Positions 29,860 to 36,888 of a stretch of DNA of 64,000 nucleotides are shown piece after piece. Each line of letters starts with the position of its first letter. The first letter of the stretch is position 1. A model generated the notes under the pieces. That model saw only the letters and a program-made list of their open reading frames with translations. It had not been told where the DNA came from and ran no database searches. Source of the DNA: Alphaproteobacteria bacterium SO-S41 (GTDB taxonomy: Bacteria; Pseudomonadota; Alphaproteobacteria; Micropepsales; Micropepsaceae); the NCBI GenBank assembly GCA_019670725.1, contig AP024629.1, forward strand, positions 4,216,001-4,280,000, in the 5' to 3' direction. The position numbers and the translations under genes are program-made.

Positions 29860-30341
29860 TGGCGGCGCGGCCCGCTTTGCCGGCGCTGCCGTTGACCGGC
29901 GGGTGCCTGTGCGGCGCGGTGCGCTATCGCATCGACGCCAGGCCGCTCGCCGTCAATGCGTGCCACTGCCTGCATTGCCAGCGCCTGTCGGGCACGGACG
30001 CGACGGTGTCGCTGCACCTGAAGGCCGAGGCGGTGAGCGTCGAGGGCGAACTGGTCCGCTATCGCCGCACCGCCGATAGCGGCCGGCAGATCGATGCGGC
30101 GCGCTGCGCGGCCTGCGGCACGCGGCTGTTCCACGAGCCGGTCTCCGTGCCTGAGCTTGTCCTCGTTGCCGCGGGAACGCTGGACGATGCGGGCTGGGCG
30201 ATCCCCGTCTCGCATATCTGGCTCAGCCGTTCGAACGGCTCCTTCGTCCCGGCGGCGGACGCGCTGGCTTTCCAGGAAAGTGCGCCGGACCGCCAGACGA
30301 TCTGGGGTCATTTCGCGGCGCTGTATCCGGCCGCGCCCTAA
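29859..30341 (+). CDS. GFA/CENP-V-fold zinc protein
   Basis: 160 aa with the glutathione-dependent formaldehyde-activating (GFA) fold. Zinc ligands: Cys16 and Cys18 (GGCLCGAVRY), Cys35, Cys37, Cys40 (ACHCLHC) and Cys83, Cys86 (CAAC). Only some family members act on S-hydroxymethylglutathione; most have unknown substrates. The start overlaps the argB stop (TGATG), so it is co-translated with argB even though the functions are unrelated. The stop overlaps the convergent CmcJ-like gene. Confidence 0.88.
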   Translation: MAARPALPALPLTGGCLCGAVRYRIDARPLAVNACHCLHCQRLSGTDATVSLHLKAEAVSVEGELVRYRRTADSGRQIDAARCAACGTRLFHEPVSVPELVLVAAGTLDDAGWAIPVSHIWLSRSNGSFVPAADALAFQESAPDRQTIWGHFAALYPAAP

Positions 30342-31165
30342 TCCCCGAAGAACACCAGCGCGCGCACCTCGATGCTTTCGCGGGGCTTCGGCGACGTGCG
30401 CGAGGCGGGGTCGGCGAACGCGGTATGGGGCGTGAAGCGCGAGCGGCCGTCGCTGCTGGAGTCGAACGACTTGATGAGGATCGCTTCGTCCGGCCGCAGG
30501 TCCGGGTAATAGAACCAGCGATGGCCGGGATTGTAGGCGACGCCGTAGGTCTCGCCGATCTTGTCGGGATAGATGAGATCGGTCGCCACGAGGTCCGCCG
30601 GGTTCACCGACTGCGCATCGGCCACGGCGAGCGGCGATTCTTCGACCGGCCCGCGCACGGGACGCCAGACATTGATGATGGCATGACGGCCCCGCAGCCG
30701 CCGCTCGGCTTCTTCCTTGGGCAAATGATCGTAAACCCGCCGGCGGCCCGACAGCTCGCTGTAGTCGTTGTGCACGGAAAGCACGGGCTCGCGCAGCTTC
30801 TCCACTGCCTTTCGTTGGGCGGGATCGTTGGAGCGCCTCGTGTGGTCGAAGATGATGACCAGTGACGCGCCGGTCTCGCGCTTCAGCAGCGCCTCGACCT
30901 CGGGATAGTAGACGCTGCGCACCTCGTCTTCGTCATAGAAGTCGGTGACGTCCGTGTCGTGGGGCACCAGCGCAAAGCCTTCGCGCTCCAGCACCGGCGT
31001 CGCCTCCAGCACCCGCGCATTGGCGATGCGCACCCGCCGCTCGTCGCGCACACCCGAGCGCCACGGTTTTCCCGGCGGCGGCTCGAATGTGTAGGAAAAC
31101 GGCTTCGGTCCGCCCGGCGCGAGATAGTTTACCGCGGCATATACGGCGTCCAGTCTGAGGTTCAT
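30338..31165 (-). CDS. CmcJ/NvfI-family (iron/2-oxoglutarate-type) oxygenase
   Basis: 275 aa. The family includes CmcJ (cephamycin 7-alpha hydroxylation), fungal NvfI and gibberellin-cluster proteins. Characteristic segments: N-terminal AAVNYLAPGG, LPHDTDVTDFYDEDEVRSVYY, VIIFDHTRRS, HNDYSELSGRRRVYDHLP, INVWRPVRGPVEESPLAVAD and the end LIKSFDSSSDGRSRFTPHTAF. The HND and late His are plausible iron ligands. Substrate unknown. ATG 31165 is followed upstream by a 26-base palindrome that overlaps the leader. No biosynthetic cluster surrounds it, so detoxification or housekeeping oxidation is as likely as secondary metabolism. Confidence 0.85.
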   Translation of the reverse strand: MNLRLDAVYAAVNYLAPGGPKPFSYTFEPPPGKPWRSGVRDERRVRIANARVLEATPVLEREGFALVPHDTDVTDFYDEDEVRSVYYPEVEALLKRETGASLVIIFDHTRRSNDPAQRKAVEKLREPVLSVHNDYSELSGRRRVYDHLPKEEAERRLRGRHAIINVWRPVRGPVEESPLAVADAQSVNPADLVATDLIYPDKIGETYGVAYNPGHRWFYYPDLRPDEAILIKSFDSSSDGRSRFTPHTAFADPASRTSPKPRESIEVRALVFFGD

Positions 31166-31172
31166 GGCCCGG

Positions 31173-31198
31173 TCTCCGTCAGGATGTCCTGACGGAGA
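31173..31198. promoter_or_regulatory. 26-base perfect palindrome before the CmcJ-like gene
   Basis: Two perfect 12-base arms (31173-31184 and 31187-31198; arm TCTCCGTCAGGA) flank a 2-base centre, seven bases before the gene's ATG. It is either a dimeric repressor operator or an mRNA hairpin that hides the ribosome-binding region (GGAG lies in the stem). Confidence 0.6.
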
Positions 31199-31269
31199 TG
31201 AGCACCGCCGCGCGGCGCCACCATTCCGGCCGGACTTAACCGACAGGGAAGCAAGGCTGAAGTGTCGCC

Positions 31270-32016
31270 CTAGCCCGTATAGGCCGTCCGCCCTTCCGTC
31301 TCGACCGGTCGGGCGCGCTGGTTGTAGAGCAGCTTGCGCAGCCGCTCGGCCTCTTCGGGGCTGGGTGCGTGCGGATTGGCCGGTACCCAGTCCGCTCCCA
31401 CCGCCATGCCGCGCTGCACCGCCGGCCGCGCGCTCAGCGCGTCGTACCAGCGCTTCAGATGGACGAACTCGTCGATCGGCTGCTTCTGCGCCACCAGCGC
31501 GGCAATCCACGGATACGAGATCATGTCGGCGATCGAATACTCACCCGCGATGAACGGGCGGTCGTAAAGCCGGTTGTTCAGCACACCGTTCAACCGATGC
31601 ACCTCGTCGGTGAAGCGGGTGACGGCATAGGTCTGGTCGCCCTGGGTGTCGCCCAGCCGCCGGAAATGGCCGGCCTCGCCGGTCTTCGGGCCCTGATTGG
31701 CCATCTGCCAGATCAGCCACTGGGTGACTTCGTATTTGCCGTGGACGTCAGCGGGCAGGAAGCGGCCTTCCTTCTCGGCGAGGTAGAGCATGATCGCGCC
31801 GCTCTCGAAGATATTGACGGGCGCGCCGCCGCCCTTGGGCGCGTGATCGACCAGCGCCGGCATGCGGTTGTTGGGGGAGATGCCGAGGAAATCCCTGGTG
31901 AACTGGTCGCCCTTGCCGATCGCCACGGGAACAACATTGTAGGGGATGCCCAGCTCCTCCAGCAGGATCGTCACCTTCTTGCCGTTGGGGGTCGGCCAGT
32001 AATGCACGTCGATCAT
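31270..32016 (-). CDS. Glutathione S-transferase, Nu/YghU-YfcG-like
   Basis: 248-aa GST. The thioredoxin-fold domain (1-85) begins IDVHYWPTPNGKKVTILLEE, with Thr/Asn in TPNGKK at the place of the Nu-class catalytic residues; NNRMPALVDH has the cis-Pro and FESGAIMLYLAEK binds the gamma-Glu. The helical domain follows with GEYSIADMISYPW. Nu-class members are often disulphide-bond reductases toward organic hydroperoxides (family knowledge). Upstream of the CmcJ-like gene on the same strand. Confidence 0.9.
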   Translation of the reverse strand: MIDVHYWPTPNGKKVTILLEELGIPYNVVPVAIGKGDQFTRDFLGISPNNRMPALVDHAPKGGGAPVNIFESGAIMLYLAEKEGRFLPADVHGKYEVTQWLIWQMANQGPKTGEAGHFRRLGDTQGDQTYAVTRFTDEVHRLNGVLNNRLYDRPFIAGEYSIADMISYPWIAALVAQKQPIDEFVHLKRWYDALSARPAVQRGMAVGADWVPANPHAPSPEEAERLRKLLYNQRARPVETEGRTAYTG

Positions 32017-32106
32017 GTTGTGCCTTTCCGCGGATGATGTCCGATGGAAAAGGGGACGACCCGCGCACCGTTCAATAGCCGAGCGGCGAATCGCCGCGAT
32101 GCCCCG

Positions 32107-32673
32107 TCAGCGCCGGGCGAGGCCTACCATGACGATGTCGATCAGGCGGTCGGCACTTTCCTTCCAGCCCGGCGCGGAGACCCCGGCGGCGAGGCCGGAG
32201 AAAACCGGGAAGAGATCGGACGCCTGCACATCGGGCCTGATCTCGCCCGCCGCGATTCCCGCGCCGACCAGCAGCTCGATCGCCTCCTGCAGGCTGGCGC
32301 CGGAATGGGCGTAGAGCGCGGAGGCGCCGCCGGTGAGCGTGCCCAGTGCGGGCACGATCAGCCGCTTGGTCGCGAGATAATCGAGCGACAGATGCAGCCA
32401 GCGCGAAAATGCCTCGGCCGGCCGGACCTCTGCCAGCAGGCTGCGGGCCGCGGCGGCGAGCTGGTCGACTTCGCGGCGATAGACCGCCTCGATGATCGCA
32501 TCGCGCGTCGGGAAATGGCGGTACAGCGTGCCGATCCCGACGCCGGTCCGCCGGGCGATTTCCTCGAGACTCACGTCGGGGCCGACCTCGCCGAAGGCGG
32601 CCTTGGCGGCGTCGATCAGCCGCTCGCGATTGCGCAGCGCGTCGGCGCGCGGGCGGCGCGCGACGTCAGCCAT
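32107..32673 (-). CDS. TetR-family transcriptional repressor
   Basis: 188 aa. N-terminal helix-turn-helix (about 28-52): SLEEIARRTGVGIGTLYRHF, then the ligand-binding helical domain, ending WKESADRLIDIVMVGLARR. Divergent from an SDR gene, and a double-repeat operator lies between them, so it almost certainly represses that gene and itself. The C-terminal domain resembles the TetR_C_33-like group; the ligand is unknown, plausibly the SDR substrate. Confidence 0.9.
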   Translation of the reverse strand: MADVARRPRADALRNRERLIDAAKAAFGEVGPDVSLEEIARRTGVGIGTLYRHFPTRDAIIEAVYRREVDQLAAAARSLLAEVRPAEAFSRWLHLSLDYLATKRLIVPALGTLTGGASALYAHSGASLQEAIELLVGAGIAAGEIRPDVQASDLFPVFSGLAAGVSAPGWKESADRLIDIVMVGLARR

Positions 32674-32685
32674 CTCTGCCTCTTG

Positions 32686-32732
32686 ATAAGCGGAGGCATC
32701 CTCCGTATATAACCGGAACCATCCTCCGCTTA
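32686..32732. promoter_or_regulatory. Tandem operator between the TetR and SDR genes
   Basis: Two copies of an ATAA-[GC]-CGGA-NN-CATCCTCCG site start at 32686 and 32709 with a 23-base period. The first is also a palindrome (CGGAGG, CAT, CCTCCG; 32691-32705). The outer halves TAAGCGGAGG (32687-32696) and CCTCCGCTTA (32723-32732) are perfect inverted copies. The spacing fits two TetR dimers on one face of the DNA. It covers the divergent promoter region (32674-32782). Confidence 0.75.
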
Positions 32733-32782
32733 TAGTCGCGCAGACGGTTCAGCCCAAGCGGAAAACCAACAGGAGACCAGAC

Positions 32783-33730
32783 ATGGCCAACGCATTCGGC
32801 GCGACCTCCACCACCGACGAGGTGCTGGACGGCGTCGACCTCACCGGCAAGCGCGTGCTGATCACCGGCGTCTCCGCCGGGCTCGGCGTCGAAACGGCGC
32901 GGGCGCTGGCCGCCCATGGCGCGACCGTCGTGGGCGCGGCCCGCGATCTCGACAAGGCGCGCAAGGCGACGGCCGGCATTCCCGGGATCGAATTGATCGA
33001 ACTCGACCTCGCCTCGCTCGCCAGCGTGCGCAAGGCGGCCGACGCGCTAAACGCCAAGGGCGATGAGTTCGACCTCCTGATCAACAATGCCGGCGTCATG
33101 GCCTGTCCGCAGGGCAAGACCGCCGACGGGTTCGAGACGCAGTTCGGGACCAATCATCTTGGTCATTTCGTTTTTGCCAATCGGATCGCGGGCTTGCTGA
33201 AATCCGGCGGGCGTCTGGTGAGCCTGTCTTCGGCCGGGCATCGCTTTGCGAATGTCGATCTGACCGATCCGAATTTCGAGACGACGCCGTATGCGGAATT
33301 CGTCGCCTATGGCCGCGCGAAGACCGCGAATGCGCTCTTCGCCGTGGAATTCGACCGCCGCCACAAGGCGCGCGGCGTGCGCGCGACCGCCGTGCATCCC
33401 GGCGGCATCCAGACCGAACTCGGCCGCCACATGAGCCCCGAGCTGATCCAGGGCATGATCGACAATATCGCCAAGGCGACGCCCGCGGGTGCCGCGCCGT
33501 TCGAGTGGAAGACGATCCCGCAGGGCGCCGCGACCTCGGTCTGGGCCGGTGTCGTCGCCCCGGCCGATGCAGTCGGCGGCCGGTATTGCGAGGACTGCCA
33601 CGTCGCCGAGATCACGGGAGGCGGCACGGAAGTCCTGATGCGCGGCGGCGTGCAGGCCTATGCGCTCGACCCCGAAAACGCCAAGGCGCTGTGGGCGAAG
33701 AGTGAGGAAATGGTCGGCGAGCGCTTCTAG
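32783..33730 (+). CDS. SDR-family oxidoreductase (retinol-dehydrogenase/WWOX-like)
   Basis: 315-aa SDR. TGVSAGLG at about 29-36 is the cofactor loop, DLASLASVR follows strand 3, NNAGVMACP near 95-103, SLSSAGH the catalytic Ser region and YGRAKTANALF the catalytic Tyr-Lys, then VHPGGIQTELGRH. Longer than simple SDRs, matching the retinol dehydrogenase 11-14/WWOX-like cluster. The AARD motif suggests NADP. Probably induced when the divergent TetR repressor senses its ligand. Its stop shares CTAG with the convergent GhrA gene. Confidence 0.9.
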   Translation: MANAFGATSTTDEVLDGVDLTGKRVLITGVSAGLGVETARALAAHGATVVGAARDLDKARKATAGIPGIELIELDLASLASVRKAADALNAKGDEFDLLINNAGVMACPQGKTADGFETQFGTNHLGHFVFANRIAGLLKSGGRLVSLSSAGHRFANVDLTDPNFETTPYAEFVAYGRAKTANALFAVEFDRRHKARGVRATAVHPGGIQTELGRHMSPELIQGMIDNIAKATPAGAAPFEWKTIPQGAATSVWAGVVAPADAVGGRYCEDCHVAEITGGGTEVLMRGGVQAYALDPENAKALWAKSEEMVGERF

Positions 33731-36151: not shown

Positions 36152-36888
36152 CCCGCTGGAAGCTGACGATCGAATATGACGGCCGGCCCTTTGCGGGGTG
36201 GCAGCGCCAGGGCGAGGGTCTGACGACCGTGCAGGGCGCGCTGGAAGACGCGGTCTTCGCGTTCAGCGGCGAGCGCGTCACCGTCCATGGTGCGGGGCGC
36301 ACCGATGCGGGCGTCCATGCCCGCGGCCAGGTCGCGCATATCGATCTGCTGAAGGACACGACCGCGAGCGTCGTGCGCGATGCCGTCAACGCGCATCTGC
36401 GGCCCCATCCCGTCGCGGTGCTGCATGCCGAAGCTGTCGGCGCCGATTTCGAGGCGCGCTTCGGCGCGACGCGGCGCGCCTATCGCTACATAATCGTCAA
36501 TCGCCGGGCGCCGCTGACCGTCGAAGCCGGGCTCGCCTGGCAGGTACCGGTCGCGCTCGACGCCGATGCGATGCAGGCGGGCGCGCAGCACCTGATCGGC
36601 CGCCACGACTTCACCACCTTCCGCGCCGCGCAGTGCCAGGCGAAGTCGCCGGTGCGTTCCGTCGACGAGATCACCGTCACGCGTGACGGTGATCGCATCG
36701 TCATCGATGTCGCCGCGCGCTCGTTCCTGCACAGCCAGGTGCGCGCCTTCGCGGGGTCGCTGAAGCTGGTCGGCGAAGGCCGCTGGCTGCCCGACGAAAT
36801 CGCCGCCGCCCTCTCCGCCCGCGACCGCAGTCGCTGCGGCCCCGTCGCCCCGCCCGACGGGCTGGCGCTGATGCAGGTGGATTACTAA
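36148..36888 (+). CDS. truA: tRNA pseudouridine(38-40) synthase
   Basis: 246-aa TruA, which isomerises uridines 38-40 in the tRNA anticodon stem. [19 protein letters not shown] opens the fold; [17 protein letters not shown] contains the catalytic Asp; [23 protein letters not shown] and [14 protein letters not shown] complete the motifs. The start is GTG 36148, overlapping the fmt stop as GTGA. Its stop overlaps that of convergent murI by four bases. Confidence 0.96.

Follow-up and report, generated by a model that had tools for sequence, protein, structure and literature searches.

A perfect palindrome before the start codon of a CmcJ-like oxygenase gene: a possible private hairpin over the ribosome-binding site

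In Alphaproteobacteria bacterium SO-S41 a perfect palindrome stands immediately before an oxygenase gene, which raises the question of whether it acts as a site in DNA, as a structure in RNA, or not at all. The window studied here is the whole stretch of 64,000 nucleotides that was analysed. An earlier note on this DNA had described a 26-base palindrome with 12-base arms and a 2-base centre, ending 7 bases before an ATG, and that description was confirmed in every particular. The arms are complementary at 12 of 12 positions. On the plus strand the sequence reads TCTCCGTCAGGA-TG-TCCTGACGGAGA, and on the minus strand, from which the gene is read, TCTCCGTCAGGA-CA-TCCTGACGGAGA is followed by CCGGGCC and then by the ATG (31165..31163), 7 bases past the end of the palindrome. 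The coordinates of the locus are collected in Table 1.

The reading favoured here, tentatively, is that the palindrome acts as RNA: in the 5′ flank of the oxygenase it would form a hairpin private to this genome, occlude the Shine-Dalgarno (SD) sequence and so lower translation of the oxygenase as the final gene in a probable TetR-GST-oxygenase transcript. What was observed is the sequence itself, the fold predicted for it, the order of the genes and the lack of the palindrome in the relatives examined.

The oxygenase gene and its neighbours

The assignment of the downstream gene to the CmcJ-like oxygenases was borne out by a match to the NCBIfam family CmcJ_NvfI_EfuI (NF041278), which begins at residue 10 and scores 336 bits, the cut-off being 80; no Pfam-A family was matched at an E-value of 0.001. 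The ATG is very probably the correct start, since the sole alternative in-frame start upstream of it before a stop codon is a GTG 345 nt away, within the glutathione S-transferase (GST) gene, and the N-termini of relatives are short, as in the window protein. The gene is patchily distributed. In a search of 96 genomes of the family, matches were found in 10, the window's own included, and in none of the four genus mates; the closest relative in the family is 57% identical. Beyond the family, the best relative in genome contigs is 53% identical over part of the protein, in a search that needs exact peptide words, and the best among 23 plasmid records is also 53% identical.

In the genus mates G013 and G014 the gene order is argB-GFA-TetR-SDR-dehydrogenase-def, with the GFA and TetR genes convergent. 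The window has two genes between this pair, oxygenase and GST, about 1.77 kb together, so the oxygenase probably arrived at the locus later than the genes that flank it. Its GC content, 0.659, falls within the range of its neighbours (0.651-0.714), and base composition therefore gives no date for the arrival. In a further genus mate, G012, a relative of the GST gene adjoins the dehydrogenase and def genes and is followed downstream by a different gene; no comparable palindrome was seen by eye after this GST relative.

The TetR, GST and oxygenase genes all run in the same direction. From this, and since no promoter was recognised in the gap between GST and oxygenase, we infer that the three probably form one transcript with the oxygenase last. 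The scan found no sigma-70-like promoter anywhere within 30200-33000, and it is weak evidence because it also missed a promoter suspected by eye before the TetR gene.

Table 1. Features of the oxygenase locus, in window coordinates.
Feature	Position	Strand	Remarks
CmcJ/NvfI-family oxidoreductase gene, 275 aa	30338..31165	(-)	NCBIfam NF041278, 1.7e-100
GST-oxygenase intergenic gap, 104 nt	31166..31269	(-)	Without a recognised sigma-70-like promoter
Shine-Dalgarno GGAGA	31173..31177	(-)	Outer end of the 3′ arm of the palindrome
Perfect palindrome	31173-31198	(-)	12-base arms and 2-base centre; as RNA, predicted 11-bp stem with ACAU loop
Glutathione S-transferase-like gene	31270..32016	(-)	Upstream of the oxygenase gene, same direction; Pfam GST_N/GST_C
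TetR-family regulator gene	32107..32673	(-)	First of the probable TetR-GST-oxygenase transcript; Pfam TetR_N and TetR_C_43
Two tandem 25-bp operator-like sites, TetR/SDR divergent promoter	32686..32733	(-)	Conserved in two genus mates

A predicted hairpin over the Shine-Dalgarno sequence

Transcription that started at the TetR promoter and read through would yield an RNA with TetR, GST and, last, the oxygenase. In such a transcript the arm segment UCUCC would pair with GGAGA, the sole good SD sequence seen before the oxygenase ATG, as part of the 11-bp stem. Ribosomes would then seldom initiate at the oxygenase start, and little oxygenase would be made in comparison with GST.

The predicted folds are consistent with this anatomy. 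The 26 nt of the palindrome alone fold at -20.1 kcal/mol, into the stem and ACAU loop listed above. With 16 further nucleotides the energy is -22.3 kcal/mol (z -4.65), and none of 200 shuffled sequences was equally stable. The hairpin persists in a context of 131 nt, where the overall z is only -2.22 and 4 of 200 shuffles were equally good. In the predicted fold GGAGA is paired within the stem, and exposing it costs 11.2 kcal/mol. For 231 SD-led genes of the same genome the corresponding cost has a mean of 3.6 kcal/mol (sd 2.2) and a maximum of 9.7, so that the oxygenase exceeds them all. These 231 were kept, after a coding-composition filter, out of 356 that crude gene and start calls gave over 464 kb; the oxygenase was outside this set and was scored separately, the suspected cause being that its longest frame overlaps GST. 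In a looser ranking it came fourth of 156, behind three open reading frames judged spurious from their translations.

How strongly such a hairpin might act can be gauged from the coat gene of phage MS2, for which a published fit relates hairpin energy to expression (PMC9894550). Entering 11.2 kcal/mol in that fit gives about 2% of full expression, a figure that is an extrapolation, since the fit used whole-hairpin energies at 42 C. In the MS2 coat gene (PMC9894550), as here, a local hairpin holds the SD, and how stable it is should determine the level of translation; in the window the start codon lies outside the stem and the stem is more stable. The MS2 hairpins are bound by a protein (PMC9894550), of which no counterpart is known for the window hairpin.

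The locus also resembles translationally coupled gene pairs (PMC12548453) in having an upstream gene in the same direction and, at the ribosome-binding site of the downstream gene, a repressive structure. It differs from them in its spacing, with 104 nt from the GST stop codon to the ATG and 71 nt to the hairpin. For the f1 VII/IX pair, coupling was prevented by a spacing of +89 nt that left the stop codon far upstream of the hairpin (PMC12548453). Judged by these distances and by analogy, coupling of the oxygenase to GST translation is unlikely.

Two other roles for the structure were considered and rejected. The stem is not followed by a run of T, and the palindrome is not among the three terminator-like sites found within 30200-33000, which removes an intrinsic terminator. 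A known RNA family was discarded as well, Rfam 15 giving three weak matches over 31000-31400, all far below their gathering scores.

Abundance of palindromes and the possibility of accident

The strongest rival explanation holds that the palindrome has no selected function, that it arose by chance or was made during replication, when a template switch corrected an imperfect inverted repeat, and that its proximity to the start codon is accidental. Template switching is reported to homogenise the arms of inverted repeats and to create RNA hairpins (PMC8604942, on yeast; PMC8794818). We regard an accident as rather unlikely taken by itself, though nearly as likely as the SD-occluding hairpin; the two are compatible, because an accidental palindrome would still depress translation.

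The earlier note had placed the palindrome far beyond chance. This is right only in part. Among 30 order-2 Markov versions of the window, 2 contained a perfect palindrome with arms of at least 12 and a centre of at most 2; with a centre of up to 10 allowed, 12 of the 30 did. Measured against the genome the statement goes too far. In 20 evenly spaced 20-kb stretches (L085-L104), which make up 400 kb or 9% of the genome, there are 10 perfect palindromes with arms of at least 12 and a centre of 0-8, compared with a mean of 1.3 per 400 kb in order-3 Markov sequence (three runs) and 7 in 3 Mb of such sequence, an excess of about 7- to 11-fold. The window itself has 5. A run of T lies beside 1 of the 10 palindromes in the sample and 3 of the 5 in the window. 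At the observed density, and assuming 4000 starts, about 0.9-1.2 palindromes per genome would be expected to end 4-12 nt before a start codon by coincidence.

A second palindrome in the window supports the accident. Inside truA, at 36669-36694, lies a perfect 26-base palindrome with the longer arms of 13 bases and no centre, and it is likewise private: the three genus mates that were compared, whose sequences align there at 86-87%, all lack it.

The palindrome before the oxygenase gene is also absent from the leaders of relatives. No perfect arm of at least 9 bases with a centre of up to 8 was found within 100 nt of the start in any of 34 leaders, namely L003 to L034 and those of two of the 23 plasmid records. 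The starts were chosen by hand, that of L014 being doubtful, and several of these relatives are distant (32-40% identity). The largest palindromes among them have 8-base arms of unrelated sequence (L004, L012 and L015); that of L015 ends 18 nt before the start. Relatives L007 to L009 have terminator-like stems with a larger loop, some 70-110 nt upstream. Nor was conserved or covarying pairing found in the 34 leaders, the best relative being only 57% identical. Absence from the 34 leaders means that there is no sign of selection for the palindrome. As a separate observation, an inverted repeat rich in AT, TCTATTGA-C-TCAATAGA, lies in the leader of L004 49-65 nt upstream of the oxygenase start, and imperfect versions of it were seen by eye before the starts of L003 and L006; a repeat of this type may possibly be an operator in those relatives.

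Two points weigh against accident. If the region is transcribed, the sole good SD is still hidden, at a cost greater than for any of the 231 called genes. The placement of such stems may also exceed coincidence: at L097 165-196, in the 400-kb sample, a perfect 12-bp stem with a centre of 8 ends 10 nt short of the ATG that opens a 250-aa reading frame, where about 0.1 such start-adjacent stems were expected in the sample and one was seen. At L097 an SD-like GAGGAG precedes the stem and lies outside it, in contrast to the oxygenase SD, which is inside an arm. Elsewhere in the sample, at about 18700-18850 of L099, dense GGGGGAGG/CCTCCCCC inverted repeats resemble a dispersed repeat family.

The palindrome as a DNA site

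As a DNA operator, the 26-bp site would bind a dimeric repressor that keeps the oxygenase gene from being transcribed. This explanation, which we consider distinctly unlikely, is suggested by a perfectly symmetrical dyad so near a start codon. The gap of 104 nt before the gene has no promoter that was found, and the 14-base core TCAGGANNTCCTGA occurs once only in the 4,443,179-base genome, the earlier note having proposed a genome search for further copies. This single occurrence also removes a dispersed palindromic repeat of the REP or MITE kind. With up to two mismatches the 20-base core was met in 15 of 96 family genomes, the window's own included, compared with 8 of 96 for a reversed control. 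The 14 others all lie within open frames of at least 363 nt, most with gene-like codon-position composition. That these look-alikes sit in coding DNA is suggestive only, since long open frames are common in GC-rich DNA and the frames were assigned without start codons. Among 385 genomes drawn from the class, the window's own is the one that contains the exact 20-mer. In IMG/VR a single exact match to a 22-mer, within a phage reading frame, was attributed to chance and dismissed as a viral copy.

A shared exact site is thus rejected by the pattern searches of genome, family and class. The comparison of leaders in orthologues that the earlier note proposed went against it too, with the palindrome in none of the 34. 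The note had named absence before every orthologue together with a lack of other copies as what would count against the palindrome; within the searched set that is what was found for the palindrome itself, and it eliminates the shared site while leaving a private element unaffected.

An operator of the adjacent TetR regulator was rejected, as the TetR gene has different, conserved sites at its own promoter. These are ATATACGGAGGATGCCTCCGCTTAT and ATAAGCGGAGGATGGTTCCGGTTAT, of 25 bp each, with starts 23 bp apart (G000 4248686-4248733), in a block strongly conserved in G013 and G014. The pattern ATANRCGGAGG-N5-TCCGNTTAT, with up to 2 mismatches, is present at this locus in three of five genus genomes and at no other locus in the five. 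The TetR protein likely acts there, if conservation and position are a guide. The palindrome is unlike these sites, its CTCCG and CGGAG elements standing in the opposite order. In their own right the sites at 32686-32733 stand out cleanly as a candidate pair of operators for a regulator of the TetR_C_43 (SbtR-like) type.

What keeps a DNA-binding role alive is the looser dyad CCGTCA-N8-TGACGG, which, when one mismatch is allowed, has 23 places in the genome (3 exact, the palindrome among them, and 20 with one mismatch), compared with 5 for a reversed control, though the general excess of palindromes would alone raise this count. Fourteen of the 22 other places were inspected, and each of these overlaps an open frame at least 384 nt long. 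Two, both around 1501-1520 of their sequences, lie just before starts: L035 (G000 1843685), without mismatch, 13 nt before an ATG, and L039 (G000 170274), with one mismatch, about 8 nt before a GTG. About 0.15 would be expected among 14, by an estimate from 4000 starts and a 12-nt span, and the pair was noticed post hoc; it raises the odds of DNA binding slightly. The L039 block recurs at the same spot before the gene in three genus mates, G012 (1 mismatch), G013 and G014 (3 each). By this comparison the block is conserved and its symmetry is not strict, the dyad being degraded to 3 mismatches in two of the three, which counts against an operator. For the L035 gene a single genus relative was found, of 45% identity, and its leader is without the dyad. 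The dyad is absent from L121, a 36% relative, and the sequence of L120 is cut off.

An intercistronic mRNA-stability element, in which the hairpin would protect the 3′ end of a processed GST message and so give unequal amounts of GST and oxygenase, would suit a hairpin between two genes in the same direction, and is improbable for one that covers the downstream SD and sits 71 nt past the GST stop codon. The puf operon hairpin of Rhodobacter is reportedly a precedent for intercistronic mRNA stability (as credited to Klug et al. 1987, cited in PMC11354728). The two are alike in lying between two genes of one operon, probable here, and differ in that the window hairpin is a predicted one and also covers the downstream SD.

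Of the two interpretations that the earlier note had offered, the RNA hairpin fits the anatomy, with the SD in the 3′ arm, a strong predicted stem and no promoter recognised in the gap, and is plausible as modelled in this one genome. The repressor site finds little support in the comparisons, given a single copy of the core, 34 leaders that are without it and TetR sites that differ; the looser dyad at two starts is what retains it.

At most, the palindrome is an element of an ordinary kind. In this genome private accidents produce perfect palindromes of such a size, even within truA, so an operator is poorly supported by symmetry alone. In a more elaborate version of the SD-occluding hairpin, to which we give very little credence, a gene newly placed in the TetR-regulated cluster would have been silenced by a hairpin from replication template switching, to be opened by a dedicated RNA-binding protein, an RNase or a metabolite at times when the oxygenase is required; were this true, the locus would record the one-step birth of a translational switch. 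If the region is transcribed, hardly any translation of the oxygenase would be expected, a point that would matter for anyone hunting for its activity or expressing it from the native DNA.
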